Of a DNA stretch of 35,437 nt, positions 3,408 to 29,131 are shown one piece after another (the first letter of the stretch is position 1; each line of letters starts with the position of its first letter). A program made the translations under genes and the position numbers. The notes under the pieces are model-generated. The model searched no databases, had not been told where the DNA came from, and saw only the letters and a list, made by a program, of their open reading frames with translations. The DNA lies in assembly GCA_017649485.1 (NCBI GenBank), contig JAGCGS010000055.1, positions 1 through 35,437 of the forward strand, written 5' to 3'. This stretch comes from Bacteroidaceae bacterium (GTDB taxonomy: Bacteria; Bacteroidota; Bacteroidia; Bacteroidales; Bacteroidaceae).

Positions 3408-3461
3408 AGTATTAGTTTTAAAGCTACATATTCAATATTTATTGTTCAATCTTCACTTTCT

Positions 3462-3527
3462 GGAGCAGCGAGAGCAGAGCGATGCTTGCATCAGCTATGC
3501 CGAGTCGCGACAGAATAGGAGCGAAGC
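3462..3527. repeat. Palindromic insert, family B copy 1
   Basis: About 66 bp beginning GGAGCAGCGAGAGC, containing CGATGCTTGCATC and GCCGAGTCG, and ending near AATAGGAGCGAAGC. A related copy lies at 5215-5275. Both are flanked by TCAAT heptamers. Confidence 0.7.
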
Positions 3528-3580
3528 TCAATGCTTAATCTTCAATCTTCAATCTTCAATCTTCAATCTTCAATCTTCAA
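3528..3580. repeat. TCAAT-core heptamer array (glpK-glpF gap)
   Basis: Seven consecutive 7-bp units of the form NNTYAAT, mostly CTTCAAT, between family B and family A inserts. More units occur at 3421-3453 and at 3646-3669, where they overlap the 3' end of glpK. Confidence 0.9.
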
Positions 3581-3645
3581 AATCGCGATTAAGCGAGAAC
3601 AGTCCTGAGCTTGCTCAAGGAATGTCGAGCGTGAGCGATTTATCT
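3579..3645. repeat. Palindromic insert, family A copy 1
   Basis: A 67-bp element starting AAAATCGC and ending GCGATTTATCT, so its ends form an inverted repeat (AAATCGC/GCGATTT). An internal imperfect palindrome is centred on CCTGAGCTTGCTCAAGG. A second copy lies at 28979-29043 and a 23-bp derivative at 31044-31066. Confidence 0.8.
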
Positions 3646-3650
3646 AATCT

Positions 3651-5144
3651 TCAATGGTTAAAGGTCAATGTCCTCTGTATCGCCTCACGCCAACCCTTCA
3701 CTTTCTCTTCCACTTGTTGACGGTCGTCAGTAGGCATGAACATGGAGTCAATCTGCCATTGGTCGCGAATTTCCTCGATACTCTTCCAATAGCCCACTGC
3801 CAAGCCTGCCAGATAAGTGGCACCTAATGCAGTGGTTTCAGGATTTCTTGGTCGAATCACCTTGGTGTTCAGGATATCAGCTTGGAATTGCATCATCAGG
3901 TTGTTGCGAGAAGCACCGCCATCCACCTTCAGTTCTGCCAAAGGTAGTTCTGCATCTCTTTGCATTGCCTGCACGATATCAAGTGTTTGGAAAGCGATGC
4001 CTTCCAAAGCAGCACGAGCGATGTGGGCTGCTGTGGTACCTCGACTGATGCCTGTGATGCTGCCTCGAGCATACTGGTCCCAATAGGGTGCACCCATACC
4101 TGTTAAAGCAGGCACGAAATACACACCTCCTGTGTCAGGTACGGTAGCCGCCAAAGCTTCAATCTCGCCAGAAGACTTGATAATACCCAAACCGTCGCGC
4201 AACCATTGTACCACTGAACCACCCACAAAGATACTGCCTTCTAAAGCATAAGTCACTTTGTCGCCTCGCTTGAGGGCGATGGTGGTAAGTAGGTTATTCT
4301 TCGACATAATAGGCTTCTCGCCACTGTTCATCAGCAGGAAGCAGCCTGTGCCGTAAGTGTTCTTCACACTGCCTGGCTCAGTGCAGAGCTGACCGAACAG
4401 AGCTGCTTGCTGGTCGCCAGCTATGCCTCCGATAGGTACTTGCTGGTTGAAGATGGCAGATTGTGTGTAGCCATACACCTCGCTGCAAGACTTCACCTTA
4501 GGCATCATTGACAATGGTATGTCGAAGAGTTTCAGCAGTTCCTCATCCCATTGCAGGGTGTGGATATTAAACAGCATGGTGCGGGAAGCGTTGGTGGCAT
4601 CCGTGATGTGCAATGCACCCTTAGTAAGTCGCCATACCAACCATGAGTCAACGGTTCCGAAACGCAACTTGCCCTGCTGGGCACGCGCTCTGGCTCCACT
4701 CACATTGTCGAGTATCCACTTGATTTTTGTCGCACTGAAATAGGCATCGATAATCAGACCTGTCTTCTCGTGGATCATGTCTGTTACGCCTTGTGCCTTC
4801 AGTTCGTCGCAATACTCAGCCGTACGGCGGTCTTGCCACACGATGGCATTGTAGATAGGCTCCTCGGTCTCCACATCCCACACGATGGTGGTCTCACGCT
4901 GGTTGGTGATACCTATGGCAGCGATGTCTTCGCCTTTGATGCCCATCTTAGCCATCGCCTCACTGATGACAGATGCCTCTGATGACCAGATTTCATGTGG
5001 ATTATGTTCCACCCATCCCGATTTGGGGAAATACTGTGTAAACTCCTTCTGGGCAACGGCACAGCTCTCGCCATGTTTGTTGAAAATGATGGCGCGTGAG
5101 CTACTGGTGCCCTGATCTACTGCTAAAATAAACTTTTGTTCCAT
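3651..5144 (-). CDS. glpK: Glycerol kinase
   Basis: A 497-residue FGGY-family kinase that phosphorylates glycerol with ATP to sn-glycerol 3-phosphate in the cytoplasm. The N-terminus carries the phosphate-binding loop [25 protein letters not shown], the [12 protein letters not shown] segment and VDGGASRNN in the C-terminal ATPase lobe are standard for GlpK, and the length is normal. It precedes glpF on the same strand. The last codons (LTFNH-stop) run into the heptamer repeats, so the C-terminal residues and the TGA at 3651-3653 come from repeat sequence. I see no clear -7 box in the repeat-filled upstream gap. Confidence 0.97.
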
Positions 5145-5158
5145 GGTATTTTATTTTT

Positions 5159-5186
5159 ATTGAAGATTGAAGATTGAAAATTGAAA
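5159..5186. repeat. Inverted-orientation heptamer array before glpK
   Basis: Four units of ATTGAAR lie just upstream of the glpK start. They are opposite in orientation to the array at 5276-5343, so the family B insert at 5215-5275 has inverted arrays on its two sides. Confidence 0.8.
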
Positions 5187-5214
5187 TGTATCCGCATGTT
5201 CAATAGTCACATTT

Positions 5215-5275
5215 CGGAGTAGCGAGAGCCATCAAACTCGCTTGAATGGCCGAGTCGTCACGAAATAGGACGCAG
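5215..5275. repeat. Palindromic insert, family B copy 2
   Basis: Shares GGAG-AGCGAGAGC, GCCGAGTCG and AATAGGA with the copy at 3462-3527. The central palindromic part differs (ACTCGCTTGAAT). Confidence 0.7.
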
Positions 5276-5343
5276 TCAATGTTCAATGTTCAATGGTCAA
5301 TGTTCAATGGTCAATGTTCAATGGTCAATCTTCAATCTTCAAT
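5276..5343. repeat. TCAAT-core heptamer array after threonine aldolase
   Basis: Ten units in perfect 7-bp phase with a fixed TCAAT and a changing first pair of bases (GT, GT, GG, GT, GG, GT, GG, CT, CT after a first partial unit). The rightmost units are inside the threonine aldolase reading frame. Confidence 0.9.
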
Positions 5344-6362
5344 CTTCTACAGTCTTTAATCAGTTCATCGACATCCTTCTCTTCTGTGGCCCATGAGGTG
5401 ACGAAGCGAATGGCAGTATGCTGTTCATCTATGGGTTGCCAATCTTCAAAGATGTATTTCTTCGCCAAGATAGCCTTTTCTGCTTTTGTGACGATGGGGA
5501 ATACCTGATTGGTCGGAGAATCAGCCAGGAACTCAAACCCAGCCTCTTTCAAAGCCGTTGATAGCTTCTTAGCTAATACATTGGCTTGACGGGCTATCTT
5601 GAAATAGAGGTCGTCTTTGAAAAGTTCCCCAAACTGAACACCCAAGACCCAGCCTTTGGCTAACAAGGCACCACGTTCCTTGCGAACATAGTCGAAGTCG
5701 GGATATAACTCTGGGTCATTGAAGACGATGGCTTCGCCAAACAAAGCGCCATTCTTGGTGCCACCAATATAGAACACATCCGTCAACTCTGTCAGGTCAT
5801 GAAGTGTGAGGTCATTCTCATCTGATGTCAATGCACTGCCCAAACGTGCTCCATCGAGGTAAAGCAACAACTTGTGAGCACGACAAAACTCGCTGATGGC
5901 CTGTAGCTCAGCTTTCTTATAAATGGTACCAACCTCAGTAGCATTTGACACATACACCATTGCTGGTTTCACCATGTGCGGACGCATGAAGTAGTCGTCT
6001 AAGGCTTTTTGAATAGCTGCTGGCGTCAGCTTGCCTTGAATGCCTGGTACGGTGATGACACGATGTCCTGTTGCCTCGATGGCACCTGTCTCGTGAGCAA
6101 AGATATGTCCACCATCCACGCAGATAACTGCTTCTGGCGAACGCAGCAGGGCGGAGATAACAGCCATATTAGCCTGTGTTCCACCAATCACGAAGTAGAT
6201 ACTTGCCTTCGGGTTGCCTATCTGTTGGCGAATTAACTCAATAGCCTCGCTTGTCACTTGATCCTCGCCGTAGCCAGGATGTTGCACATAGTTCTCTTCC
6301 TGAAGCTTTTTCAGGATGTTGGGATGTGCTCCCTCTGAGTAGTCGCATGTAAAACTGTACAT
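5325..6362 (-). CDS. ltaE: Low-specificity L-threonine aldolase
   Basis: A 345-residue PLP enzyme of the beta-eliminating lyase family that cleaves L-threonine or L-allo-threonine to glycine and acetaldehyde. The start (YSFTCDYSEGAHPNIL), the DGGHIFAHETGA segment, YLDGARLG and the PLP-lysine motif FYIGGTKNGALFGEA fit the family. Length is normal. The C-terminus RRLKIED-stop is translated from the heptamer array, so the native end has probably been replaced or trimmed. The same LKIED ending occurs in the DNPH1-like gene at 29113. A weak -7-like TAACTTCG (6397-6404, minus) precedes it. Confidence 0.93.
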   Translation of the reverse strand: MYSFTCDYSEGAHPNILKKLQEENYVQHPGYGEDQVTSEAIELIRQQIGNPKASIYFVIGGTQANMAVISALLRSPEAVICVDGGHIFAHETGAIEATGHRVITVPGIQGKLTPAAIQKALDDYFMRPHMVKPAMVYVSNATEVGTIYKKAELQAISEFCRAHKLLLYLDGARLGSALTSDENDLTLHDLTELTDVFYIGGTKNGALFGEAIVFNDPELYPDFDYVRKERGALLAKGWVLGVQFGELFKDDLYFKIARQANVLAKKLSTALKEAGFEFLADSPTNQVFPIVTKAEKAILAKKYIFEDWQPIDEQHTAIRFVTSWATEEKDVDELIKDCRRLKIED

Positions 6363-6430
6363 TCTGTTAAATGGTTTGATTCATATTATCAAGATGCGAA
6401 GTTAAGTGTTTTTTCCTAATTAAAAAAGAA

Positions 6431-6457
6431 AAAGGGAAAGCATTTGACTTTCCCTTT
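6431..6457 (-). terminator. Rho-independent terminator after the aldo/keto reductase
   Basis: AAAGGGAAAG (6431-6440) and CTTTCCCTTT (6448-6457) pair perfectly over 10 bp with a 7-nt loop. Read leftward the stem is followed by TTCTTTTTTAATT. It is 23 bp beyond the stop of the upstream gene. Confidence 0.85.
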
Positions 6458-6480
6458 AGATTATTTACACAAAAATATAA

Positions 6481-7911
6481 TTATAATGTTCCTTGCTTCA
6501 GTTTCTCCACATATTCGTCGATGCGCTGCATCTGGCGCGGTATGTCGATGCGCTGAGGACATTCGGGCGAGCACTGGTTGCAACTGGTGCAATGGCTGGC
6601 CTGACGAAGCTTGGGCACTGCACGGTCGTAGCCCACAAGGAAGGCCTGACGGGCTTTCCTGTAGTTGGGATCCTGCATGCTCTCTGGTATGTTGCCTTCG
6701 TTCACGCATTTGTTGTAGTGCATCAGGACACCAGGGATGTCCAGTCCGTAAGGACAAGGCATGCAATACTGGCAGTTATTGCACGGAATGGTGGGGTAGG
6801 TGACAATCAGACTGGCTGTGTCTTCCAGATAAGCCAGGTCGGCTTCTGACAATGGTACTACTGGTGCCAGACTGCGGATATTGTCCTGCAGGTGCTCCAT
6901 ATAGGTCATACCGCTCAGGATGCTCATCACCATAGGATAGGTGCCGCAGAAGCGGAATGCCCATGATGCCACACTGTTTTCTGGCTCTTGCTGCTTCAGA
7001 CGGGCTACCACATGGACGGGCACGTTTGACAAACGGCCTCCCAACAATGGCTCCATGATGACACTTGGAATGTTGCGCTTGGCGAGTTCACCATACAGAT
7101 ATTCTGCATTCACATTGCGTGGATTGGTCTCCTTGGCATGAGTCCAGTCAAGGTAGTTCATCTGGATCTGTACGAAGTCCCAATGGTACTTGCCTTCGTC
7201 GTGCAACTGCAGCATGTAGTCGAACACAGCTACGTCGCCGTGGAACGACCAGCCGAGGTTACGGATTCTGCCGGCTTCTTTTTCTTTTACCAAAAAGTCG
7301 AGCACGCCGCAATCGAAGAATCGTTCTTTCAGCAGAGGAATACCGTTGCCACCACCGATAGAGTGGAGCAGGTAGTAGTCGATATAATCTATCTGCAACT
7401 CTTTGAATGAGTTGTAGTACATTTCTTTCGATACTCTCTCCATCTCCTGTGGAGTCAAGCCTCGTTCAGCATAACGCTGATTGGACAACTTGGTGGCTAC
7501 ATAGAAGCTTTCACGGGGATGACGCTTCAAAGCGATGCCGGTGGCACGTTCTGACTGTCCCTGCACATATACTGGGGCAGTATCGTAATAATTGACACCA
7601 TGCGCCATAGCATAGTCAATCAGTTCATTCACTCGTTCCTGATCGATGATGTTGCCATTTGCATCTGGTCTTGAAAGGGTAGGCCAACGCATACAGCCAT
7701 AGCCTAAGAGTGAAACCTTGTCGCCTGTTGTGGGGTTAGTGCGGTAGGTCATAGTGCCTACGGGCACTTCCGTAGTATGGTGACCAGCAGGGTCAAACTC
7801 TGCATTCTTCTTGGGTGCACAGCTTGCCACAGCAGCTCCAGCTGCAACAGTAGCACCTGCTCCCATGACTTTCAGAAAGCCCCTGCGACTTATATTATTC
7901 TTTTTATCCAT
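6481..7911 (-). CDS. Secreted aldo/keto reductase with C-terminal 4Fe-4S ferredoxin domain
   Basis: About 476 residues. The N-terminus (MDKKNNISRRGFLKVMGAG) is a twin-arginine signal, with a possible lipobox VASC after it, so the protein is probably exported folded with its clusters. Residues of the AKR tetrad are visible as YYDTAP (Asp), YVQGQSE (Tyr), VATKLS (Lys) and YLLHS (His). Near the C-terminus CNNCQYCMPCP and CTSCNQCSPECP carry cysteines for two 4Fe-4S clusters. I chose the ATG at 7911: the frame could extend to a TTG at 7920, but that codon lies in the heptamer array. The gene upstream encodes a membrane polyferredoxin and is a likely electron partner. The substrate is not evident. 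Confidence 0.88.
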   Translation of the reverse strand: MDKKNNISRRGFLKVMGAGATVAAGAAVASCAPKKNAEFDPAGHHTTEVPVGTMTYRTNPTTGDKVSLLGYGCMRWPTLSRPDANGNIIDQERVNELIDYAMAHGVNYYDTAPVYVQGQSERATGIALKRHPRESFYVATKLSNQRYAERGLTPQEMERVSKEMYYNSFKELQIDYIDYYLLHSIGGGNGIPLLKERFFDCGVLDFLVKEKEAGRIRNLGWSFHGDVAVFDYMLQLHDEGKYHWDFVQIQMNYLDWTHAKETNPRNVNAEYLYGELAKRNIPSVIMEPLLGGRLSNVPVHVVARLKQQEPENSVASWAFRFCGTYPMVMSILSGMTYMEHLQDNIRSLAPVVPLSEADLAYLEDTASLIVTYPTIPCNNCQYCMPCPYGLDIPGVLMHYNKCVNEGNIPESMQDPNYRKARQAFLVGYDRAVPKLRQASHCTSCNQCSPECPQRIDIPRQMQRIDEYVEKLKQGTL

Positions 7912-7914
7912 AAT

Positions 7915-7991
7915 GGTCAATTTTCAATGGTCAATGGTTAATGGTCAATGGTCAATGGTTAATGATCAATGGTCAATGGTCAATGGTCAAT
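7915..7991. repeat. Heptamer array of 11 units
   Basis: Exactly eleven 7-bp units, mostly GGTCAAT with GGTTAAT, GATCAAT and TTTCAAT variants, fill the whole gap between the polyferredoxin stop and the aldo/keto reductase start. Confidence 0.95.
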
Positions 7992-7993
7992 AA

Positions 7994-9550
7994 TTAAATA
8001 ACCCTATGCACTTCGTGACCTTCCACATGGATGGCACTGATAGGACGAGAAGGACAGAGGTTTTCGCAAGCACCGCAACCGATGCAAAGCTCCTCATTTA
8101 CCACTGGAATCTTCAGCGACTTCGGGTCGTTAGGATCACTCAGAACCATCTGGATAGCACTGGTTGGACAGTGGCGTGAGCAGTTGCCACACTCCTGACC
8201 ATCACGGATAGGAATACAGAGTTCACGAGTCCAAACAGCATGACCTACTTGGATGGATGATTTCTCTGCCACATCAATCAATTTAATTGCTCCAGCAGGA
8301 CAAACCTCAGAGCAGCGTACACACTCAGGACGGCAATAACCAACCTCAAAGCTTGACTCGGGCTGCATCAAAGTCATCAGGTCAGTGCTGGGACGCAACA
8401 CACCATTAGGACAAGCTGAAACGCAAAGCTGGCAACCAGTACAATGGTTTGCCATATTCTTCAGACTAACAGCACCAGGAGGCACAATCTTTGTGGCACG
8501 GTTAGGTTTCACCTTGTCTGCTATCTCAGCCAAACCACCATCTACCTTCTTGTCGGTTGCTTCAGGAATAATCTGAGCCTTAGCGGCAGCAGCGGCACCT
8601 ACAGCTATGGTGGTAAGGAAAGTACGCAAACCTGGGTCTGAAACTTCTTTCTTAGCTTCTGCCTTTGCAGCAGGCTTCTCTACCACTACTGGCTTTGGGA
8701 ATGCAGTTGCCATAGAAGGTGTGGCAAACTTATAGCTCAGTGCACCGAACTTACATTTCTCCAAGCAGTTGCCACAGGTAACGCAGCGACTATAGTCAAC
8801 GGTGTGTGTCTTATAGTCTATGCAAGAAGCCTTGCAGTTGCGAGAGCACATGCTGCAATTCTTACATTTCTCGGCATCGAATGTAATGTGGAAGAAAGAG
8901 AAACGAGAAACGAATCCCAATACTGTACCTACAGGGCAGATGGTATTGCAATAAGTTCTGCCGTTGCGCCAAGCCAGTATGAAGATGATAACCAGCGTAA
9001 CGACAGCAATGATGAGGGTAGGCATTGACTTCACCCAAACATCCACATCGTAGATGGCATAGCTTTCATATTTCTCGGCAATGGAAGCCAGCACGTTGTT
9101 GCCCAGTCGGTAGATAGGCTGGAAGATGTTGCTGGCAATACGTCCGTATGAACTATATGGGGCTAATAAAGCCACAAATGAGCCTACACCGGCAATGATA
9201 GCCATTACGAATACACCTAACACTGTGTATCTCAGTGCGCTCATAGCCTTAGAATAGGTGTAAGGAATCTTGCTCTCCTTTTTGGGACGAGCCTTCTTGC
9301 CGAACCAAGCAATGATGTCTTGGAACACACCCATTGGACAGATTACCGAACAGTAGATTCGCCCGAAAATAAGTGTAAGGGCGATGAGCAAAATAATCAC
9401 TCCTGCGTTGAGTGCCAGAACAGCAGGCAGGAACTGTAGTTTCGCCATCCAGGAGAACCATGCATGAGTCACACCTGTAAAATCAAGGAACATCAGGGTG
9501 ATACACACATAGAAGATGATGGCCAGCGTTAGTCTAATTTTACGTAACAT
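7994..9550 (-). CDS. Membrane polyferredoxin (NapH/4Fe-4S binding family)
   Basis: A 518-residue inner-membrane electron-transfer protein. The N-terminal half has about five hydrophobic segments with two CxxxCP motifs (IYCSVICPMG near 75 and TYCNTICPVG near 205), as in NapH/YccM proteins. Two ferredoxin-type clusters follow (CKNCSMCSRNC and CVTCGNCLEKC). After a linker come four more cysteine groups (CTGCQLCVSACP, CVRCSEVCP, CGNCSRHCP and CIGCGACENLCP). This suggests a wire of up to six or more 4Fe-4S clusters from the quinone pool across the membrane. The next gene downstream is an exported ferredoxin-fused reductase, the probable acceptor. A TATCTTTG -7 box lies upstream. Confidence 0.88.
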   Translation of the reverse strand: MLRKIRLTLAIIFYVCITLMFLDFTGVTHAWFSWMAKLQFLPAVLALNAGVIILLIALTLIFGRIYCSVICPMGVFQDIIAWFGKKARPKKESKIPYTYSKAMSALRYTVLGVFVMAIIAGVGSFVALLAPYSSYGRIASNIFQPIYRLGNNVLASIAEKYESYAIYDVDVWVKSMPTLIIAVVTLVIIFILAWRNGRTYCNTICPVGTVLGFVSRFSFFHITFDAEKCKNCSMCSRNCKASCIDYKTHTVDYSRCVTCGNCLEKCKFGALSYKFATPSMATAFPKPVVVEKPAAKAEAKKEVSDPGLRTFLTTIAVGAAAAAKAQIIPEATDKKVDGGLAEIADKVKPNRATKIVPPGAVSLKNMANHCTGCQLCVSACPNGVLRPSTDLMTLMQPESSFEVGYCRPECVRCSEVCPAGAIKLIDVAEKSSIQVGHAVWTRELCIPIRDGQECGNCSRHCPTSAIQMVLSDPNDPKSLKIPVVNEELCIGCGACENLCPSRPISAIHVEGHEVHRVI

Positions 9551-9583
9551 ATCTCAAACAAATATCAGATTTTAAATGAGAAG

Positions 9584-9614
9584 CAAAGATAAGCGTTTTA
9601 ATTCAATATTGCAA
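9584..9614 (-). promoter_or_regulatory. Promoter of the polyferredoxin operon
   Basis: TATCTTTG (9584-9591, minus strand) matches the -7 consensus, with TTG at 9612-9614 twenty bases further upstream. It is 34 bp before the ATG at 9550. Confidence 0.6.
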
Positions 9615-9737
9615 GCAAAAGCTGTTAAAAACGAAAAAAAAGGTTTTAAAACGAAAGCCCGTATCTAAGCAGGCTCTTGTTGCAGTTTTCGCCTTATTAT
9701 TCACTTTCAACCAGATTTGTTTGTTCATGGCTCTCAT

Positions 9738-9813
9738 AACTATATGGCTTTTGATGGCTAAACTATATGTTTACAGGTCGTTAACCTATGCTTAGGACAG
9801 GTAAAACCTATGC
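9738..9813. promoter_or_regulatory. Phased direct repeats, possible operator
   Basis: AACTATATG at 9738-9746 and 9761-9769 is followed by AACCTATGC at 9783-9791 and 9805-9813. Start-to-start spacings are 23, 22 and 22 bp, about two helical turns. They lie 125-220 bp upstream of the polyferredoxin promoter. Function is inferred only. Confidence 0.4.
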
Positions 9814-9879
9814 CTATTTGCTGCAATCTCCCAATGGTATGAATCAATGAACCTCGCGTAGGCGACTTTTACTATATAC

Positions 9880-9969
9880 TTACATTTAATAGTCAACTAA
9901 ATGTAATTTCTATATATGAAAGTTAGTATATATAACTTCATCGCTTCATATAAAAGTTAGTATATATAA
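9880..9969. repeat. Inverted repeat and 17-bp direct repeat downstream of the carboxylesterase
   Basis: TTACATTTA (9880-9888) pairs with TAAATGTAA (9898-9906). The 17-mer AAAGTTAGTATATATAA is present at 9919-9935 and again at 9953-9969. The rest of the 432-bp gap holds no gene that I can see. Confidence 0.75.
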
Positions 9970-9982
9970 TCAAGCACGCATA

Positions 9983-11365
9983 TTATTCTACCACCAACTT
10001 GTGGATATATGGGTTAGCCTTAGTAGCTTTAGCCCAGGCATCACCAGTCTTGCCGTTAGGGTTACTGTACTTGGCAAAGTTAGTCCAGGCATCTACCATT
10101 CGGTTCGACAAGTCATAGTCGCCTTCAGTGAAGGGGCGCCAGCTACGACTTAGGGTGTGGAACACATACCATAGCTCACTGCTATGGAAGGACCCCTTCA
10201 GGCATTCACGTCCATCGTCGGGCAACTTCCTGTCGAAAAGGTAGCAATAGGTGGGCTTGTCAGACAAATCCTCACGCACCTTGGCGAAGTTAAGGATGGC
10301 CTCACTCAAATCGGCCATATCATCTCCGGTATAGCCCAACAGATAGGGGACATCAGCCAAAGTCTTGTCATAGGTAGCCTGCTCGAAGCTCTCGGGCAGA
10401 ATCACTCCGTCAATATGAGGCGCAAATGATAAACCACCGCCCCATCCCAAAAAGGCTGTAGCTTTGTATAAGCTGTCGGCGGACAAAGCACGCAGCTCTG
10501 CCAGCGAATGATAGCCCAGCTTGTCCAATGCAGCCTTGCCTGCCTCGTCGTATTCCGATTGCGGTTTGGCATTGACGGGGATGAAGTCACCCAGTCCACC
10601 ACCACTCTGTACCAGCGCTTTGGCTATGAGACCACGACTGAGGGGAGAAACACACAGATTGCGGATGCTGGCACCACCGGCACTCTGACCGAAAACCATA
10701 ATATTGTCGGGATCGCCACCAAACTGGGCAATGTTGTCTTTTATCCATTGTAGGGCAGCTATCTGGTCGAGCAAGCCATAATTGCCTGATACCCCGTCAG
10801 GATCTTCGGCCGACAACTCAGGATAGCTCAGAAAACCAAAGGCACCCAATCGATAGTTGATGGTAACCAATATAACATCGCGCTGAGCCCAAGCCTCGCC
10901 GTCCATCTGCATCTCGAAGCCCCAGCCGCCACCATATCCGCCACCATGTACCCACATAGCCACAGGCAACTTCTTGTCAGTATGACCAGGAGCGTTGGCC
11001 GGTGCCCAGATGTTCAGGTACAGACAGTCCTCAGAATAGTTAGGATCGTCAGAACGGAAATGAAACTCGGTGCCATACTGTCCGTCTTGCGGATTGCGGA
11101 TGCGTTGCATGGCTCCGTCGCTGAAAGTGTCGGCCACCTTCACCCCCTGCCAGGCAACTACCGGCTGAGGACGTTTCCAACGCAAGTCGCCCACTGGAGG
11201 AGCTGCAAAAGGCACACCACGATAAACAATCACATCAGATGTTTCGAGTTGCACACCCTGAATCTGACCTCCCTCGATATTCAGCACCGGATTAACGGCG
11301 TCAGGAGTTGAGCCACATGCTGCCATGAGTAATGACAGACCGAATAAAAACATGCTTCTTTTCAT
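9983..11365 (-). CDS. Carboxylesterase type B, lipoprotein
   Basis: A 460-residue alpha/beta-hydrolase of the carboxylesterase B (pnbA-like) family, predicted to hydrolyse carboxyl esters. The signal peptide ends in a lipobox (LLMAACGS), so it is probably anchored in the envelope. The family pattern is clear: YRGVPFAAPPVGDLRW near the start, SEDCLYLNIWAP, the oxyanion segment VHGGGYGGG, the nucleophile elbow FGQSAGGAS (Ser) and the C-terminal FHSSELWYVF carrying the likely catalytic His. Length is slightly short for the family. The start is 8 bp beyond the stop of the ABC exporter gene, so the two are probably cotranscribed. The natural substrate, possibly a plant cell-wall ester, cannot be read from sequence. 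Confidence 0.9.
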   Translation of the reverse strand: MKRSMFLFGLSLLMAACGSTPDAVNPVLNIEGGQIQGVQLETSDVIVYRGVPFAAPPVGDLRWKRPQPVVAWQGVKVADTFSDGAMQRIRNPQDGQYGTEFHFRSDDPNYSEDCLYLNIWAPANAPGHTDKKLPVAMWVHGGGYGGGWGFEMQMDGEAWAQRDVILVTINYRLGAFGFLSYPELSAEDPDGVSGNYGLLDQIAALQWIKDNIAQFGGDPDNIMVFGQSAGGASIRNLCVSPLSRGLIAKALVQSGGGLGDFIPVNAKPQSEYDEAGKAALDKLGYHSLAELRALSADSLYKATAFLGWGGGLSFAPHIDGVILPESFEQATYDKTLADVPYLLGYTGDDMADLSEAILNFAKVREDLSDKPTYCYLFDRKLPDDGRECLKGSFHSSELWYVFHTLSRSWRPFTEGDYDLSNRMVDAWTNFAKYSNPNGKTGDAWAKATKANPYIHKLVVE

Positions 11366-11373
11366 AGTATTTA

Positions 11374-13176: not shown

Positions 13177-13213
13177 ACCTTTTTCAACTTATTATTTGCT
13201 TCGTTTTCCTCTG

Positions 13214-13221
13214 CAAATATA
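13214..13221 (-). promoter_or_regulatory. -7 box (TATATTTG) for the ABC exporter gene
   Basis: Minus-strand TATATTTG matches TAnnTTTG and is followed by C. No TTTG lies at the standard spacing upstream. The 13177-13457 interval is divergent and otherwise empty; I found no convincing plus-strand -7 box for the next gene. Confidence 0.5.
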
Positions 13222-13457
13222 CGAGTTGTTTCGTAAAATATAGTCATTTGTTGAAGTTTTTTTCTCAGTATCCCTATTATAAGAATCTCCTGCTTTATAA
13301 GAGACGCAATGAGGGGTGTAGCTGTTATATTATTGCTTCTATTATTGCTTTTCCCAGTTTTTTTCACGAGATTTGCACTAAATAATTGTTGCATGCTGAT
13401 GTTTTGTTCAGTTGTGACATATAACTCTTGACTACGAAGGTTAAATATTATTGTTTG

Positions 13458-14396
13458 ATGAATAGGAGATCATTTCTTTCGAGTGCATCGTTGCTGGGTT
13501 TCGGTGCATTGGCAACCATGAGTTGCAAGGGTGGGGAGGATGCTGCCAATACTCCCCGACATAAGCGCTTTGGTTTGCAGGTTTTTGGTGTGTGTTTGGA
13601 ACTGGCGAAGGATATCCCTGCTGGTTTACGAAGGCTGAAGGAGATGGGGTATGATACCCTTGAATTGGCAGGATATAACAATGGCACCATAGCCTTGTTT
13701 CACGATCCTATCTCACTGGTTGACTATCGCAAGATGGCGCAAGATGCAGGTTTGGAGATTACCAGTTCGCATGTGAGGACTCCCCAGACGGAATATACGC
13801 GAGATAATAAAAGCGAGGTACTGGATTTCTGGAAGTCAACTGCTGAACATCATGCCTTGTTAGGTATCACTTATCTGGTGCAGGCTGCTGTGCCTACTTG
13901 CAGAAGTGTGGAGGATGTGCAGCTGGTGGCAGAGATATTCAATGAGGTAGGACGGATTGTGCAGGATGCTGGTATGTTGTTTGCATTCCATAACGAGGTG
14001 AATGTGGCTATGCGCGTAACACCTGGGGGCAAAGAGAGTGTGTATTCATTAACCGGCAGATATCCTGACGGTGCACAGCAGATATTCGATATCCTGCTGA
14101 ATGATACTGATGCCGGACTGGTGTGCTTCGAGCTGGACGGCTTAGCCGCTATTCTGGGTGGCAATGACCCCGTGCGTTACCTGCAGCAATATCCCAAACG
14201 CTTTCAGCTGATGCATGTGAAGGATATGGAGGCTTTAGGTGCCTCAGGCATGATTAACCATGAGAACATCTTCCGCCAGTTTCATCAGAACGGTATGACG
14301 GATTTCTTTGTGGAAGATGAGAACTTCCGCAGTGGGCACCAGTTTGAAAGGGTAGAGGAGAGTGCACGCTACCTGCAAAAAGCGGCGTTTGTATAG
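13458..14396 (+). CDS. Sugar phosphate isomerase/epimerase family protein (xylose-isomerase-like TIM barrel), exported
   Basis: About 312 residues. I start at the ATG of MNRRSFLSSASLLGFG because the frame upstream only reaches a TTG. NRRSFL is a short twin-arginine-like signal followed by a lipobox-like TMSC, so export as a lipoprotein is likely. The body is the AP_endonuc_2/TIM-barrel family: LKEMGYDTLELAGY near the start, AFHNEVN (His, Asn, Glu metal or acid residues), LVCFELDGLA, LMHVKDME and FFVEDENF. Members isomerise or epimerise sugars or 3-keto-sugars with a divalent metal. The true substrate is unknown. It stands alone and converges on the next gene. Confidence 0.82.
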   Translation: MNRRSFLSSASLLGFGALATMSCKGGEDAANTPRHKRFGLQVFGVCLELAKDIPAGLRRLKEMGYDTLELAGYNNGTIALFHDPISLVDYRKMAQDAGLEITSSHVRTPQTEYTRDNKSEVLDFWKSTAEHHALLGITYLVQAAVPTCRSVEDVQLVAEIFNEVGRIVQDAGMLFAFHNEVNVAMRVTPGGKESVYSLTGRYPDGAQQIFDILLNDTDAGLVCFELDGLAAILGGNDPVRYLQQYPKRFQLMHVKDMEALGASGMINHENIFRQFHQNGMTDFFVEDENFRSGHQFERVEESARYLQKAAFV

Positions 14397-14422
14397 ATGA
14401 CAGGTCTCTGACTAAAGGACAT

Positions 14423-14448
14423 AGCAAGGGGGGATGAGCCCCCTTGCT
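14423..14448. repeat. AGCAAGGGGG/CCCCCTTGCT hairpin between convergent genes
   Basis: A perfect 10-bp stem (14423-14432 and 14439-14448) with loop GATGAG. It belongs to the CAAGGGGGC palindrome family and sits in the 67-bp gap between convergent stops. It could act as a two-way terminator although it lacks a T tract. Confidence 0.7.
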
Positions 14449-14463
14449 TGGTGCCATGAATGC

Positions 14464-15999: not shown

Positions 16000-16059
16000 C
16001 AGCGTGGTGAGGAAGCGGAGGGGGAAGTGTGGAGCTATATGTGCGTAAATGCCTGTGCA

Positions 16060-17323: not shown

Positions 17324-17333
17324 CTGAGCCTCC

Positions 17334-20389: not shown

Positions 20390-20403
20390 TATTTATAAAA
20401 TGT

Positions 20404-21681
20404 TTACAGTTGTTTTACGAGCCAATTCATCGGCTTTCCCTCGGAGTAGTCCTGCAACAGGGGTACCCAGCTGAAGTGTGACAACATGGCTGGAACATTC
20501 CACTTCGCCAAGTCTTCGTCAGAATAGATAATCATCTGGTCGTTCTTGGCACCCAAACGCTTGCGAGCTTCCGTATAGGCATAGGTGCTCGCCACCTTAC
20601 ATGTCTGGTCACTCTCGGCATGAGCGAAATACATCGGTAGATTAACAAAAGCTTCTATATTCATGGTACTCAGCTGCATATCTGTGCCATTCCACTTATA
20701 TACACACTTTCCTTTCCACACCTTTTCCACATCGTCGGCATACTGTCCGGGATACTTCTCATCCACTTTATGGATAGGGACTATTGGGTCCATAGCGCAG
20801 CAGGGGATAGCAGCCTTGAACCTGTCGGCAAACTGCATCATGAATCGCATGGTGCAGCCACCACCCGACGATGCACCAGCACAGAACAGCTTGCTGCCAT
20901 CCACTTTACCCTCAGCTATCAGTTGGTCGATAAACGCCATTTGAAGGGCATTGTTGCGGTCAATCAACTCAATCTTCTCAGGATAGAGCGATGCGCTATA
21001 AGTGTAGTTGGGATTGGCTAATGCAAATACCAGAGCAGCACAAGGAATGCCTTCCTTGGCCAATGATACCAAACAGCGATTGGCTGTGGCTACAGTCATC
21101 AGGTCTTTGTCATATTCACCACCGCCGATCTGCCATACCATAAGTGGTACATTGGGAATAACATTCCCATCCTTATCTTTGGGAAGGTGCAGCATATACT
21201 CGCGAGTCAGCCCGGCAAATGTAAAGCTGCCTTTGATGCAGTCGTCCAGCACGTCAATATGCTCAGCCGCCACTTGGTCGGGCTTTACATTCAGAGCCGA
21301 ATCGATGGTGCAATGCAGTTCCCAAGGAATGATGTTTCTGAAATCTTCCCTTCTACCAGCTTTACTGAAAGGGGTGGCTTCGATGCGCAGCACATTGTTC
21401 TGGGTACTCACCACAATGCCGTCATCCTCGTATTCCTCATACACCTTCCCTGTGGCGGGATTCATGAATCCACCGGGCACATTGTTTACCAAATCAAAAT
21501 CGGCAGCTGTCAAACCTTTGATGGAACGTGGGTTGGATACCGTGATTTCAATAGTATTTACCAACATGCCAAAATCACCTACTTCGGTATGTATTTCTAC
21601 TTTCTCAACTTCGGCCATTGGCCTTGGGCCACAAGCTGCTACCAACAGCGAAGCCCCAATCAAAAATAAACGGTTAATCAT
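20404..21681 (-). CDS. Alpha/beta-hydrolase (esterase-like) lipoprotein
   Basis: A 425-residue protein with a lipobox (ASLLVAACGP). The first 150 or so residues form a beta-rich N-terminal domain. The hydrolase part has LMVWQIGGGEYDKD, the nucleophile elbow FCAGASSGGGC (Ser in GxSxG), and a late MLSHFSW with a candidate catalytic His. It resembles the prolyl-oligopeptidase/CE1-type esterases of Bacteroidetes, many of which remove acyl groups or cleave ester links in plant polysaccharides. It is the first gene of an operon with the dehydratase and gntP, so release of a sugar acid or opening of its lactone is plausible, but this is inference from context. Confidence 0.72.
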   Translation of the reverse strand: MINRLFLIGASLLVAACGPRPMAEVEKVEIHTEVGDFGMLVNTIEITVSNPRSIKGLTAADFDLVNNVPGGFMNPATGKVYEEYEDDGIVVSTQNNVLRIEATPFSKAGRREDFRNIIPWELHCTIDSALNVKPDQVAAEHIDVLDDCIKGSFTFAGLTREYMLHLPKDKDGNVIPNVPLMVWQIGGGEYDKDLMTVATANRCLVSLAKEGIPCAALVFALANPNYTYSASLYPEKIELIDRNNALQMAFIDQLIAEGKVDGSKLFCAGASSGGGCTMRFMMQFADRFKAAIPCCAMDPIVPIHKVDEKYPGQYADDVEKVWKGKCVYKWNGTDMQLSTMNIEAFVNLPMYFAHAESDQTCKVASTYAYTEARKRLGAKNDQMIIYSDEDLAKWNVPAMLSHFSWVPLLQDYSEGKPMNWLVKQL

Positions 21682-21706
21682 GATAATTATTTAATGCATA
21701 TTTCTG

Positions 21707-21736
21707 CAAAAGTAGTAACTTTTTTCATTACCGCAA
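21707..21736 (-). promoter_or_regulatory. Promoter of the esterase-dehydratase-gntP operon
   Basis: Minus-strand TACTTTTG (21707-21714) matches TAnnTTTG, with TTG (21734-21736) exactly 19 bp upstream. It lies 26 bp before the esterase ATG. Confidence 0.7.
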
Positions 21737-21787
21737 TAATAACCCATCTAAAACTCATTCACAATAGCTTTTTTTTGAAAAAAGATG

Positions 21788-21795
21788 TATCTTTG
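21788..21795 (+). promoter_or_regulatory. -7 box (TATCTTTG) for the GH2-GH30 operon
   Basis: A consensus -7 box followed by C, 32 bp before the GH2 ATG. No matching -33 element was found. It is divergent from the promoter at 21707-21736. Confidence 0.65.
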
Positions 21796-21815
21796 CGGAA
21801 GTATAGTTTATTTAA

Positions 21816-25550
<3,735 letters not shown>

Positions 25551-25552
25551 TA

Positions 25553-27061
25553 ATGAAGAGATTTACAGTTGCATTATTAGCTTTGGCGGGCGTGATGACT
25601 GCTTGCCAGCAAACGCCTCAAGTGGTAGAGTGGGTAAGTACCAGCTATGAGCATCCTTGGCAGATAAACAAGTTAAATGTCACAAGCGATGAGGTGCCAT
25701 CACCAGTGATTGTGATTGATACCCAGAAGACCCGTCAGACTGTTGAGGGCTTCGGCACTTGTTTCAACGAACTGGGTTGGACTTCGCTGAATGTGTTGAC
25801 TCAGCAAGAGATTAATGGCATCTTGCACGAATTGTTTGAGCCTGGCAAGGGCGCTAATCTCACGATGGGTCGAATGCCTCTGGGTGCCAACGATTTCAGT
25901 CTGGATTTCTATAGCTACGACGAGACTGATGATGATTTTGACCTGAAGGATTTCAGCATTGATCACGACAGGCAGACTCTGTTGCCTTTCGTCAAGTCGG
26001 CTTTGGCTATCAATGCCAACATCAAGCTGTTTGCATCGCCTTGGAGTCCACCGCAATGGATGAAGGTAAACCATCATTATGCTTGCAATTCTACCGCGGC
26101 TATGGTAAAGGCTATGGAGCAGCGATTGGCTCAGTTGCCCGATAGTGTGCGTCATCGCATGGGTGGCAATTCGGGCATCACAGGCATGATGAGTGTAGAT
26201 AACGGATTGGCCATTGACAAAGTGGTTCGTGAGGGCGAGGATGCTTTCATACAAGATCCGCGTTACCTCGATGCCTATGCTCGCTACTTTGGTAAGTTTA
26301 TAGATGCCTATCGTGCTGAGGGCGTTGATTTTAAGACTGTGATGCCACAGAACGAGTTTAATTCCGACCAGCTGTTCCCGGCTTGTGTTTGGAAGCCTGA
26401 AAGCTTGGCTAACTTCATTGGCAACTACTTAGGTCCCGAGATGGAGAAACGTGGTGTTGAGGTGTTCTACGGAACGATTGAACGGGCAAACCTGGAATTG
26501 AGTCACACCATATTGAACAACCCTGCAGCCCGCAAATATATCAAGGGTATGGGATTCCAGTGGGCAGGCAAGGATGCGCTGCCTACCTTGCACCAGGAAT
26601 ATCCTGAGTTGGCTTGCTACCAGACGGAGCAGGAGTGTGGTAATGGCAAGAACGATTGGGCGGGAGCTATGCACTCATGGGAGTTGATGAAGCACTACTT
26701 CATGTATGGTGTTCAGGCTTATTTCTACTGGAACACCTCGTTGCTGGAAGGTGGTGTGAGCCGCTGGGGATGGAGCCAGAACAGTCTGGTGACGGTGGAT
26801 AAGGACGCCAAGACTTTCCGCTATACACCCGAGTTTTATATATTGAAGCATGCCAGTCACTATGTGATGCCTGGGGCTAAGGTGGCAGAGATAGCTGGTA
26901 CTTACGATGATGCGTTGTCGTTTGTCAATCCTGACGGCAGTGTGGTGGTACTTGTGGGCAACCAGTCAGATGCCGAGCAGATTATTACGCTGCAGCTGAA
27001 TGGAGTAAATCAGGTGGTTACTATGGCTCCGAATACCCTGAACACTGTGGTACTGAAATAA
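25553..27061 (+). CDS. Glycoside hydrolase family 30 enzyme, lipoprotein
   Basis: About 502 residues. The ATG at 25553 is 2 bp after the GH2 stop and follows a TTG I did not use. MKRFTVALLALAGVMTACQQ is a lipoprotein signal. The GH30 pattern is clear: QTVEGFGTCFNELGW, LTMGRMPLGANDFS, LFASPWSPPQWMK, the acid/base Glu in VMPQNEFN (about residue 268) and the nucleophile region CYQTEQECGN (Glu 359). A C-terminal beta-domain closes the protein. GH30 members cleave beta-1,6-glucan, glucosylceramide, xylan or fucosides; the subfamily cannot be fixed by eye. Tight spacing to GH2 implies one transcript and a shared glycan substrate. Confidence 0.92.
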   Translation: MKRFTVALLALAGVMTACQQTPQVVEWVSTSYEHPWQINKLNVTSDEVPSPVIVIDTQKTRQTVEGFGTCFNELGWTSLNVLTQQEINGILHELFEPGKGANLTMGRMPLGANDFSLDFYSYDETDDDFDLKDFSIDHDRQTLLPFVKSALAINANIKLFASPWSPPQWMKVNHHYACNSTAAMVKAMEQRLAQLPDSVRHRMGGNSGITGMMSVDNGLAIDKVVREGEDAFIQDPRYLDAYARYFGKFIDAYRAEGVDFKTVMPQNEFNSDQLFPACVWKPESLANFIGNYLGPEMEKRGVEVFYGTIERANLELSHTILNNPAARKYIKGMGFQWAGKDALPTLHQEYPELACYQTEQECGNGKNDWAGAMHSWELMKHYFMYGVQAYFYWNTSLLEGGVSRWGWSQNSLVTVDKDAKTFRYTPEFYILKHASHYVMPGAKVAEIAGTYDDALSFVNPDGSVVVLVGNQSDAEQIITLQLNGVNQVVTMAPNTLNTVVLK

Positions 27062-27116
27062 ACAATTAACTCCCCTTCTGATATAGAGGGGATGCACATA
27101 GGGTGGGTAATATAAG

Positions 27117-27674
27117 ATGATATACCTTAACGATAATATATTTGATTTCGACTTGCAGGCGGCGTTGGCTGAGTTGTCAGACCAGCGTCGTGAGCAAGCC
27201 CTGCGATTCAAGCATGAGTTTGGGCAGCGCACCTGTGCAGCTGCCTACCTCTTGCTGTGCGAGGGTTTGCAAAAGGAATATGGCATTACCGAGAAGCCTG
27301 AGTTTGAATATGGTGAGCAGGGCAAGCCTTTTATCGTGGGACATCCTGAGATACATTTCAACCTCAGTCATTGCCGTGAGGCGGCCATCTGCATCATTGC
27401 CGATCATCCTGTGGGTATCGATATCGAGTCGATTCGTCCCTTCAAACAAACGCTGGTGGATTATACCATGAATGAAGAGGAAGTTGCTCGCATCCAGCAG
27501 GCTGAACGTCCCGACATTGAGTTTATCAAGCTGTGGACACAGAAAGAGGCTGTGCTGAAACTGAGCGGTGAGGGTATCAGCAAAGATATGAAACAGGTGT
27601 TGGTCAATCCGCCTGCATCGCTTACGACTGTAATAAGTGAAGATGAACGCTATGTTTATAGCAATTGCTACTAA
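27117..27674 (+). CDS. 4'-phosphopantetheinyl transferase (Sfp type)
   Basis: A 185-residue enzyme that transfers phosphopantetheine from CoA to a carrier-protein serine. The signature motifs are VGIDIESIRPF (Mg-binding Asp and Glu) and FIKLWTQKEAVLKLSGEG, and the N-terminal half contains FNLSHCREAAICII. Length suits a compact Sfp/HetI-type protein. It lies 55 bp after the GH30 stop and only 10 bp before the glycosyltransferase. It could serve fatty-acid, polyketide or aryl-polyene type carrier proteins, but no such carrier gene is in the window. Confidence 0.9.
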   Translation: MIYLNDNIFDFDLQAALAELSDQRREQALRFKHEFGQRTCAAAYLLLCEGLQKEYGITEKPEFEYGEQGKPFIVGHPEIHFNLSHCREAAICIIADHPVGIDIESIRPFKQTLVDYTMNEEEVARIQQAERPDIEFIKLWTQKEAVLKLSGEGISKDMKQVLVNPPASLTTVISEDERYVYSNCY

Positions 27675-27684
27675 TTATTGAATT

Positions 27685-28956
27685 ATGGCACATTTTTGTT
27701 TCATGGTTTTGGGGAGTAGGGGTGATGTACAGCCTATGTTGGCTGTCGCCCTGCAATTACTGCAAAGGGGTCATCAGGTTACGCTCTGCACAGGAGCTTC
27801 TTTTGAAAAGATGGTTTCTTCCAAAGGCATTCGCTTTGTGGAGACTTCACTTGATTTGATGAGCCTTGCGGATTCAGATGTGGGACGGAAGATTTTTCAT
27901 GCTCCAGTGAGGCATTTCAATTTGGCACGAAAAGTCATGAAGGAATACATCCTACCACGTTTCAGAAAAACGCTCGACCAGTGTTACGAAGCAGCCAAAG
28001 ATGCCGATATCATCATATACCATCCCAAAGTATTTGGTGCTGTGGATATGGCCATCCATTTGAATATCCCTTGTGTGGTTATGCCTGCTGTACCTATCTT
28101 GTCGCCTGTCAAGGAGTTCCCTAATTTGGGCATAACAACCCGCTCTTTAGGCAGTTTTTTCAATAAGCTATCTTACAAGATCAATGATTGGGCTGAGCAA
28201 TCGTATATACATGAGGTAAACGATTTCAGGCAACAGTCCTTAAATCTTCCTCCTCGTAAGGCTGGACTCTATGCTAAAGCTGGTGCTGATGGCAAGTTGA
28301 ATCGTATATTATATCCTTTCAGTGATTTGCTGTTCCCAGATGTGAGCGACTGGAATAGCAGGGCTTACCTGTCAGGTTTCTGCTTTTTGGAGCAGCCAGG
28401 AGAGCTGTCTCCTGCGGTTATTGACTTTCTGCAAAAGGGAACAAAGCCTATAGTTGTTTCATTTGGAAGTGTCGATTTACCAGATGCTGATGCTTTTTTC
28501 CGTCAGTTTGTTTTAGCATTGAAGCAAACAGGTAATAGGGCAATCTGCATTGGTAGAAAAGAGGTATTTCTCAATGATAATCATAAAGAAGAAATGCTTT
28601 CAGAAGTGCTTTTTGTGAAAGAATCGCCATTCCTCTCGCTATTCCCATTTGTCAAAGGGGTTGTTTGTCATGGAGGTATTGGTACAGGTTCCTCGGCTCT
28701 TTTGTGTGGTGTACCATTAATCACATTACCTATTTCTGCCGATCAACCTTTTTGGGCTAAGCGTTATGGGCTAATAGGTTGTTTGGCTGGTTCAATCAAG
28801 ATAGGGCATTATCGGGCAGAAGACATCGGGAATATGCTGAGAGAGCTCGACAATGATCGCTTGAAAGAGAATCTTAGCAAAGCATCTGCATATCTGAAGC
28901 AAGAAAACGGAGCATCTAAAGCAGCTGATTACTTAGAAAGAATGTTAGAATCATAG
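27685..28956 (+). CDS. GT1-family glycosyltransferase (UDP-sugar, MGT/sterol glucosyltransferase type)
   Basis: A 423-residue GT-B enzyme. The N-terminal domain opens FCFMVLGSRGDVQPMLAVA, the classic start of the macrolide/sterol UDP-glucosyltransferase group. The C-terminal nucleotide-binding region has VVCHGGIGTGSSALLCGVPLITLPISADQPFWAKR, matching the HGG-GT--AL--G-P--- P---DQ--WA signature. It would transfer a sugar from a UDP-sugar to a lipid or small hydrophobic acceptor. The 10-bp gap to the phosphopantetheinyl transferase suggests the two work together, perhaps on a carrier-protein-derived lipid or pigment (inference). After its stop begins the long heptamer array. Confidence 0.87.
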   Translation: MAHFCFMVLGSRGDVQPMLAVALQLLQRGHQVTLCTGASFEKMVSSKGIRFVETSLDLMSLADSDVGRKIFHAPVRHFNLARKVMKEYILPRFRKTLDQCYEAAKDADIIIYHPKVFGAVDMAIHLNIPCVVMPAVPILSPVKEFPNLGITTRSLGSFFNKLSYKINDWAEQSYIHEVNDFRQQSLNLPPRKAGLYAKAGADGKLNRILYPFSDLLFPDVSDWNSRAYLSGFCFLEQPGELSPAVIDFLQKGTKPIVVSFGSVDLPDADAFFRQFVLALKQTGNRAICIGRKEVFLNDNHKEEMLSEVLFVKESPFLSLFPFVKGVVCHGGIGTGSSALLCGVPLITLPISADQPFWAKRYGLIGCLAGSIKIGHYRAEDIGNMLRELDNDRLKENLSKASAYLKQENGASKAADYLERMLES

Positions 28957-28978
28957 CGAAACTCATTCTTCAATCTTC

Positions 28979-29043
28979 AAAATCGCGAGTAAGCGAGCGC
29001 AGAGCCAAGCTTGCTTGGGTATGCCGAGCGTGAGCGATTTATC
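28979..29043. repeat. Palindromic insert, family A copy 2
   Basis: A 65-bp element with the same AAAATCGC and GCGATTTATC ends as 3579-3645. The core is the palindrome CCAAGCTTGCTTGG. It is embedded in TCAAT heptamers on both sides. Confidence 0.8.
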
Positions 29044-29047
29044 CAAT

Positions 29048-29131
29048 CTTCAATCTTCAATTTTCAATCTTCAATCTTCAATTTTCAATCTTCAATCTTC
29101 AATTTTCAATTTTCAATCTTCAATCTTCAAT
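29048..29131. repeat. Heptamer array of 12 units with 21-bp order
   Basis: Twelve perfect 7-bp units (CTTCAAT or TTTCAAT). The order of first bases is C,C,T three times, then T,C,C, so a 21-bp super-unit repeats. The last three units lie inside the reading frame of the neighbouring minus-strand gene. Confidence 0.95.

Follow-up and report, generated by a model that had tools for sequence, protein, structure and literature searches.

Tandem arrays of heptanucleotides, with head-to-tail units found at many loci beyond chance expectation, are a known class of bacterial long simple sequence repeats. The arrays described here share these features: they are made of 7-bp NNTCAAT units, a TCAAT core preceded by a variable dinucleotide, and lie in four gene gaps, between positions 3,408 and 29,131, of a 35,437-nt stretch of a Bacteroidaceae genome (assembly GCA_017649485.1, contig JAGCGS010000055.1), indicated below as the window. 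Heptamer arrays are already known; the present ones are set apart by their core, by the species-specific alphabet of the linker dinucleotide, by their placement at gene 3' ends in the TGA orientation and by a structured companion repeat, named R. Among the titles listed from the open-licence literature covered, none deals with arrays of TCAAT, or with the core of R, in Bacteroidales.

TAACTGA direct repeats are reported from Beggiatoaceae, cyanobacteria and some Bacteroidetes (MacGregor 2015, PMC4679880); in the excerpts of that paper used here, the author notes stops in all frames, overlap with stop codons and possible mobility. According to the same excerpts, these repeats resemble the TCAAT arrays in their 7-bp head-to-tail units, in their presence at more than 100 places and in a patchy phylogenetic distribution, as well as in the three-frame stops on one strand, the overlap with gene stops and the reverse-orientation copies inside open reading frames (ORFs). 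They differ in having a fixed TAACTGA unit, while here TCAAT (ATTGA on the other strand) is combined with a species-specific dinucleotide, and in their position: most of them immediately precede start codons in the type genome, while TCAAT arrays are mostly located where genes end. A structured companion and concerted evolution are, as far as those excerpts go, features of the TCAAT case only.

GGGAATC and GGGGA(C/T)T heptamers are described from Xanthomonas and Nostoc (Rehm 2015, PMC4692102). In the extracts of that source, these arrays too are located in gene gaps, many of them overlapping a stop codon or within 50 bp of one, with a strand preference near the stop; their unit, however, is G-rich and quadruplex-forming, and two Xanthomonas genomes have most of them in the same gene gaps, while conservation of TCAAT arrays across the species compared is mostly lacking. 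The degenerate heptanucleotides NNTGAGT and TDNGATT of Nostoc trnL intron P6b share with NNTCAAT the combination of five fixed and two variable bases and the change of length by whole units, but form, in the portion of the source drawn upon (PMC4476775), the arms of one group I intron RNA stem. The TCAAT arrays do not pair in such a way: they are dispersed over gene junctions, and two of them fold like shuffled sequences. Small, dispersed, structured repeats inserted within Nostoc heptamer arrays were reportedly described by Elhai and co-workers in 2008. Finally, R resembles the repetitive extragenic palindromes (REPs) of the REP/REPtron type, associated with REP-associated tyrosine transposases (RAYTs), in being small, palindromic, present in many copies, dispersed and structured, with variable paired stems; unlike them, to judge from the extracts of PMC6006769 and PMC3733652, R has another conserved core and is bordered by heptamers in the source genome, and no cognate RAYT gene with R on its flanks was found.

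The TCAAT core and its linker dinucleotide

Unlinked arrays of one species evolve in concert. When detection is anchored on the TCAAT core, the linker dinucleotide follows different alphabets in the source genome of the window (G000: GG.34, CT.22, GT.08; 289 units) and in two species of the same genus (G013: CG.29, TG.26, GG.25; 140 units; G058: TC.33, GT.19, TT.18, CC.15; 93 units). For pairs of arrays at least 1 kb apart, dinucleotide similarity is.197 when both belong to one genome and.069 when they belong to different ones, a difference reached in none of 300 label permutations; the values are.198 and.064 for the 83 arrays free of R, and.198 and.124 when G000 and G013 alone are compared. 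An earlier note on this DNA had described the dinucleotide as freely changing; it is instead drawn from a species-specific alphabet, common to unlinked arrays.

Exact matches to three units number 449 in the source genome (2.6 Mb in 69 contigs, 83% complete), split between the strands as 237 and 212, while the backward pattern has a single match. In a 402,014-bp sample of it, composed of the window and 20 further stretches, 43 arrays with three or more exact units are found, and none in the reversed sequence. Analyzed by Tandem Repeats Finder (TRF), the sample yields 112 non-overlapping arrays: period 7 is the commonest (42 out of 112), followed by periods 14 (11 arrays), 21 (9) and 12 (8). 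The TCAAT core is present in 36 of the 42 period-7 arrays, a TCAAC-type variant in two more. Period-7 detection independent of the motif gives 47 arrays; after dropping four with a different unit, 43 arrays with 270 units are left, 225 of which contain exact TCAAT. The core positions are 92–99% constant, while position 1 (G.54, C.24, T.16, A.05) and position 2 (G.65, T.30) vary: the contrast between a constant core and a variable dinucleotide, pointed out earlier, is confirmed in this sample. Different dinucleotides are mixed within arrays of constant core, which are therefore not homogeneous repeats; neighbouring units have the same dinucleotide with a frequency of.49, against.27 expected (.39 on the motif-anchored set), and blocks of several units, repeated inside arrays, are a trace of slippage. 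Any four-unit match is found in 67 of 149 genomes, with array-rich and array-free species within one genus. For the question of viral carriage, 97 and 22 stretches are recorded under viral_contigs.

Independent slippage would account for arrays by expansion, at each locus, of similar words found by chance 7 nt apart, with a polymerase favouring this distance and no exchange between loci. The multi-unit blocks and the adjacent identical units fit this explanation, and the 3' end of the gene labelled ltaE below reads, in one relative (G137), ATTGAGG ATTTAA, a plausible seed. Period 7 is also dominant at loci from other Bacteroidales (72 runs, against 1 to 14 for periods 5, 6 and 8 to 11), and the proposal that 7 nt suits the polymerase is reported in the extracts of PMC4679880 and PMC4692102. 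Slippage does not explain, however, a single core common to 36 to 38 of the 42 period-7 arrays, nor alphabets which recur across unlinked loci but not before isolated TCAAT words, whose leading dinucleotides are similar in all three genomes, CA being the foremost. One alphabet across unlinked arrays makes independent local slippage insufficient by itself, while copying between loci predicts it; as an origin of the arrays, independent slippage is considered unlikely. The earlier argument, that slippage should homogenise the whole unit, was well conceived: slippage is visible in the multi-unit blocks, but does not explain the common alphabet.

On the ATTGANN strand, as seen in the sequence, one TGA occurs every 7 bp, so that stops are present in all three frames. 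The NNTCAAT strand, supposed to be free of any stop, is not necessarily so: when NN is AG, GA or AA, one of the frames acquires a TAG, TGA or TAA, and AG accounts for 7% of the units.

Placement at gene ends and turnover between species

Placement was evaluated in G000, G013 and G058 by simple gene calls (ORFs and codon score). Non-coding arrays are within 30 bp of a stop codon in 51 out of 70 cases (28/35, 9/16 and 14/19, respectively), while random non-coding placement gives means of 6.7, 1.5 and 2.0 and maxima of 13, 5 and 7 in 200 trials: the suggested enrichment at gene 3' ends is found in all three species. A location mostly upstream of starts is not observed, as in G000 28 of 35 arrays are near stops and 12 near starts. 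For 44 of the 51 arrays near stops (25/28, 8/9, 11/14), the TGA codons lie on the strand of the gene. Among these 44, the array contains the gene's stop codon, or shares its register, in 30 cases (18/25, 7/8, 5/11): the stop is inside in 9, 7 and 5, always as TGA, and just outside in 9, 0 and 0. The strand bias, for which the earlier note proposed a test, is present, but becomes weak (14 versus 7) when stop-supplying arrays are removed; it derives mainly from these, and selection on the protein end would give it anyway. Coding arrays are in the stop-free TCAAT orientation in 24 out of 31 cases. None of 68 placed arrays (0/34, 0/15, 0/19) falls in a gap between divergent genes; such gaps make up 16–23% of intergenic bases.

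Other Bacteroidales were represented by loci chosen for the presence of R (114 of 117, three shorter than 3 kb being dropped), analyzed with crude gene calls. Their 60 non-coding period-7 runs belong to 35 unit classes, and 25 of them are within 30 bp of a stop, against 7.7 (maximum 16) in random placement.

The strong 3' end enrichment, the TGA orientation and the many gene stops that belong to an array, or share its register, are consistent with a role as selected fail-safe translation stops or 3' end signals, presenting TGA in all frames behind genes. Such a role is at odds with orthologous junctions, which are array-free in 12 out of 20 cases in G013 and in 40 out of 42 in eight other relatives, with the coexistence of array-rich and array-free species in one genus, with the weak orientation left after removal of stop-supplying arrays, and with coding arrays, mostly avoiding stops; it is held to be improbable. 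The all-frame stops indicated by the earlier note are thus a real property, visible in placement, while a dedicated stop function is not in agreement with mostly array-free orthologous junctions.

Alternatively, the arrays could be a binding platform for a protein which recognizes TCAAT/ATTGA at 7-nt intervals, on DNA or RNA, in regulation or nucleoid organisation. One core with a varying linker in three species, as found by core-anchored detection, is compatible with this possibility, and a translational regulator is proposed for TAACTGA heptamers in the excerpts of PMC4679880. Sites, however, are rarely conserved, divergent promoter gaps contain no arrays in the three species, and no binding protein was identified; a binding platform is rated as quite improbable. 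RNA foldings of two arrays, each analyzed on both strands, are within 1.3 standard deviations of shuffles, and a conserved RNA structure of the arrays is accordingly unsupported.

In the window, arrays were detected by TRF and pattern search. When up to two mismatches are allowed, 44 matches to three consecutive units are found, against 0.19 expected from shuffles, a number far beyond chance. The 7-bp phase and the TCAAT core are borne out at all four gaps, but, contrary to what had been stated, three of these are not filled by units: out of 262 bp in the first, 185 in the second and 167 in the fourth, about 53, 95 and 88, respectively, are array, and the rest is mostly R, while the third is array alone. 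The first gap is downstream of a glycerol kinase gene (3651–5144, minus strand; FGGY domains; ORF, Pfam and junction comparison), whose TGA stop is inside a heptamer-like unit; it contains an array of 7.6 copies (3528–3580, plus strand; TRF, pattern), and is followed by the next downstream gene, an aquaporin/glycerol facilitator (2685–3407, minus strand; MIP, by Pfam). In the second gap two neighbouring arrays are opposite in orientation: one of 3.9 copies (5159–5185, minus strand; TRF, pattern) adjoins the glycerol kinase start codon, the other, of 10.3 copies (5276–5347, plus strand; TRF, ORF, Pfam, sequence), gives the TGA stop of the 5325–6362 gene, whose product has a Beta_elim_lyase domain (Pfam). 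The array of the third gap, of 11.4 copies (7912–7991, plus strand; TRF, ORF, sequence, Pfam), separates the genes of an aldo/keto reductase and of a 4Fe-4S protein; the latter ends with a TAA stop (7994–7996, minus strand) that follows the register of the units. The last array, of 12.6 copies (29044–29131, plus strand; TRF, ORF, sequence, Pfam), lies between convergent genes and gives the TGA stop of the 29113–29526 gene (Nuc_deoxyrib_tr). The genes with Beta_elim_lyase, FGGY and MIP hits are labelled here ltaE, glpK and glpF. Elsewhere in the window (605–1535), 69-bp tandem repeats in 13.5 copies are largely inside ORF 626–1729, perhaps, as a guess, coding for a leucine-rich-repeat (BspA-like) protein.

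The glpK–glpF junction, between conserved anchors, is 294 bp long in the window species and 52–76 bp in six relatives, whose GlpK is 93–97% identical: of the seven species compared, only the first has the gap expanded by arrays and R. A function as spacers had been suggested; an insertion of about 220–240 bp in an operon gap, short in six relatives, looks rather like tolerated filler. At the ltaE–glpK junction, heptamers are present in four of the seven species, with different orientation, unit and position: arrays plus R are found in the window species, an ATTGACC array in G013, a TCAATTA/G array of the other orientation in G137 and, in G006, heptamers that follow the start codon of glpK in frame. 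The gap is minimal in G029 and G027, while G008 has another element (L202), a distinct insertion with CCCCCTCCCC and AGGGGAGCTGTCACGAAGTGAC parts, perhaps a miniature inverted-repeat transposable element.

When DNA of the relatives was compared, at least one orthologous junction was available for 21 of the 35 array clusters. With gaps longer than 450 bp dropped, a period-7 array is present in 8 out of 20 cases in G013, the closest relative compared, where the baseline is 16 out of 179 gene junctions, and in 2 out of 42 in eight others; sites are therefore partly common with the nearest relative, with altered content.

Protein linkers may also contain arrays. In a 522-residue two-domain ABC-like protein, recognized by eye (L039, 262–1827), the linker is composed of array, R and array, in frame; in G013 and G006 this linker has heptamers of a different kind, in G029 it includes an R fragment, and in G114 (L298) the heptamers of other species are replaced by an apparent period-8 run of GATGGAGC-like units. 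For a hisD–hisC fusion with an array in its linker (genes named by eye), formation by an array was ruled out: 9 of 10 relatives searched match nearly the whole fused length, so that the fusion predates the array, and the linker content alone differs.

The structured repeat R

R, the second element found beside the arrays, is a structured repeat of about 75 bases, with copies in three of the four gaps. It is composed of an outer stem, AGCGAGMGCAGAG, a hairpin, CTATGCCGAG and again the outer stem, often with a mini-hairpin around GAA. In 60 aligned copies, standard pairs are found in 93.9% of the cells of the inner helix, and hairpin covariation is 0.433, against 0.183 in shuffles, none of 500 being as high; pairs changed on both sides are not in excess over shuffles (290 of 500). 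The arms of the outer stem are variable in sequence, with helices of at least 7 contiguous pairs in 39% of true and 15% of shuffled arm pairs, and tend to pair in two registers, matching two types, R1 and R2. RNA foldings of the four copies of the window are no better than shuffles (z from -0.25 to -0.89): the evidence for structure is therefore covariation. Rfam 15 covariance models show no match, up to E = 1, at positions 3300–5500 of the window, where three R copies are located. Many R1-type copies, when compared with the GT[AG]G foot of REPs, feature a GGAG near the outer stem, which is missing in the R2 type.

A covariance model locates four copies in the window, all on the plus strand: one of R1 type at 3448–3548 (82.4 bits; the hit includes flank), followed by the 3528–3580 array; one of R2 type, with an AAATCGC/GCGATTT outer stem, at 3573–3673 (52.3 bits); an R1-type variant at 5202–5298 (31.2 bits), between the two opposed arrays; and one of R2 type at 28973–29072 (67.2 bits), followed by the 29044–29131 array. 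In the 402-kb sample, 19 hits are found at E<1e-3. A scan of genome contigs for the R core identifies at least 117 stretches; among the matches listed (80 titles), carriers are Bacteroidales-type, or unclassified Bacteroidetes and bacteria.

R is within 150 bp of 10 of the 35 array clusters (random mean 0.64, maximum 3 in 300 trials); adjacent R and arrays have the same orientation in 12 out of 14 cases, and R1-type copies of the source genome are nearly always bordered by TCAA heptamers. Over the 149 genomes, in which at most 27 R candidates per genome were scored, R and array counts are correlated (Spearman.36, p 8e-6, with no correction for relatedness). In other Bacteroidales, period-7 arrays are within 200 bp of R at 18 out of 116 loci, against 4 out of 575 control segments, and the heptamer units near R differ between species.

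A constant association of R with heptamers was ruled out by 30 R loci (from G011, G145, G118 and G032) with no period-7 run longer than 12 positions; a few of them are cut by contig ends, the examined stretch missing R itself. A 5' truncation of R with heptamer tails, similar to that of short interspersed elements, was looked for as well: most R1 copies retain the core, and three coreless R 3' tails with heptamers were picked by eye (L031, L037, L195). Heptamer-free R-like elements, in promoter-like places, were observed in G145 (L211, L217, L221, L225, L237) and G032 (L209, L214, L222, L226). One arm of their outer stem overlaps a TATNTTTG-like box, resembling the -7 motif of Bacteroidetes, as if the elements were inserted at, or carried, a promoter.

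Proposed origin and tolerance of the arrays

The explanation favoured here, by a modest degree, is that the arrays are a dispersed, spreading and largely selfish satellite-like heptamer repeat, tolerated where its TGA is harmless. Growth would occur by local slippage or duplication, multiplying units, as partly shown by multi-unit blocks and adjacent identical dinucleotides. Concerted evolution suggests that spread would depend on existing arrays seeding new ones: some seeding may accompany insertion of the structured R element, some would probably result from short-homology template switching, or ectopic conversion, via the 5-base TCAAT core. The core would thereby stay fixed, while the 2-base linker would drift in concert genome-wide. 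Survival would reflect selection sparing harmless arrays, a pattern observed in three species, with a presumed cause; harmless sites would be gene 3' ends, in the immediate-TGA orientation, and protein linkers or domain edges, in the stop-free one. The all-frame-stop property would then be the reason why gene-end arrays are tolerated, not necessarily a selected function.

A dedicated writer would be either a RAYT/Y1 transposase, moving R and heptamers together, or a reverse transcriptase, writing heptamers from RNA. The dispersion of R copies and the heptamer borders of the R1 type in the source genome may be seen as an indication for it, along with a RAYT (NF047646, 102 bits) near an array in the same genome and, in the extracts of PMC6006769, a Bacteroidetes TnpA subclass 2.6 with 'atypical' REPs. 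The palindrome flanking that RAYT, however, is other than R. NF047646, matched in 25 of the 149 genomes, three of them above the cut-off, is unmatched in four of six array-rich genomes examined (G013, G023, G058, G114), and no ORF with RAYT motifs is found in 838 kb around 117 R loci. The reverse transcriptase domain RVT_1 is missing from five of six array-rich genomes examined, and present in 6 of 13 genomes free of arrays and R. Array-rich metagenome-assembled genomes are 76–89% complete, hence such absences are weak evidence. A writer of either kind is thought very improbable: RAYT-driven mobility of R was rejected as a general cause, and reverse-transcriptase templating is unsupported.

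The RAYT of the source genome (L195, 1438–1977, in contig C14) contains NHLH, WQ and YIHMNP motifs and is flanked by its own GGATTACAAATCC-type palindromes; a long TCAAT array is located about 400 bp downstream. A weak Y1/RAYT-like match in contig C56 of the same genome (L196; 76485–76874) falls within a 1295-residue open frame, which reads like a DNA methyltransferase (DPACGSGAF).

Several observations weigh against the spread of a tolerated, selfish repeat. No transfer event was caught: concerted evolution indicates that loci are coupled, without giving the manner of coupling, and the register with stop codons could also mean that stop codons seed arrays. Enrichment extends to starts: in G000, G013 and G058, 12, 7 and 7 arrays are no more than 30 bp away from one, against random means of 7.4, 1.8 and 2.1 and maxima of 14, 6 and 6 (200 trials): in G013 and G058 every random trial is exceeded, although arrays near starts are still fewer than near stops. 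The avoidance of divergent gaps does not extend to the 114 loci of other Bacteroidales: of the 43 period-7 arrays placed there with the crude gene calls, 9 fall in such gaps, roughly the fraction of bases that these represent. Two of the 12 'empty' G013 junctions contain a period-7 run of 13, the threshold being 14. As to R, it is more than 150 bp away from 25 of the 35 array clusters; G011 and G145, with 19 and 26 R hits, have no TCAAT array, and G061 and G109, with 28 and 16 array matches, have no R, which is therefore neither sufficient nor necessary. The lack of NF047646 and RVT_1 matches in most of the array-rich genomes examined belongs here as well.

A more far-reaching possibility is a genome-wide process of Bacteroidales, which would write or copy arrays into gene ends and keep the code of each species, a fixed 5-mer with a small dinucleotide alphabet, alike at unlinked loci, R being maybe a guide or landing pad. 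RAYTs and reverse transcriptases were not found in most array-rich genomes examined, so that the machinery would be new; this possibility is distinctly unlikely.

If concerted evolution at dozens of unlinked gene ends is true, simple slippage would not be the whole story of bacterial heptamers. Publications on Xanthomonas, cyanobacteria and Beggiatoaceae have raised this puzzle; the origin of heptamer arrays becomes testable in species that are related but feature different heptamer dialects at the same junctions. Repeat DNA is also seen to rewrite gene ends and protein linkers, as in the two-domain ABC-like protein, whose linker differs among species.

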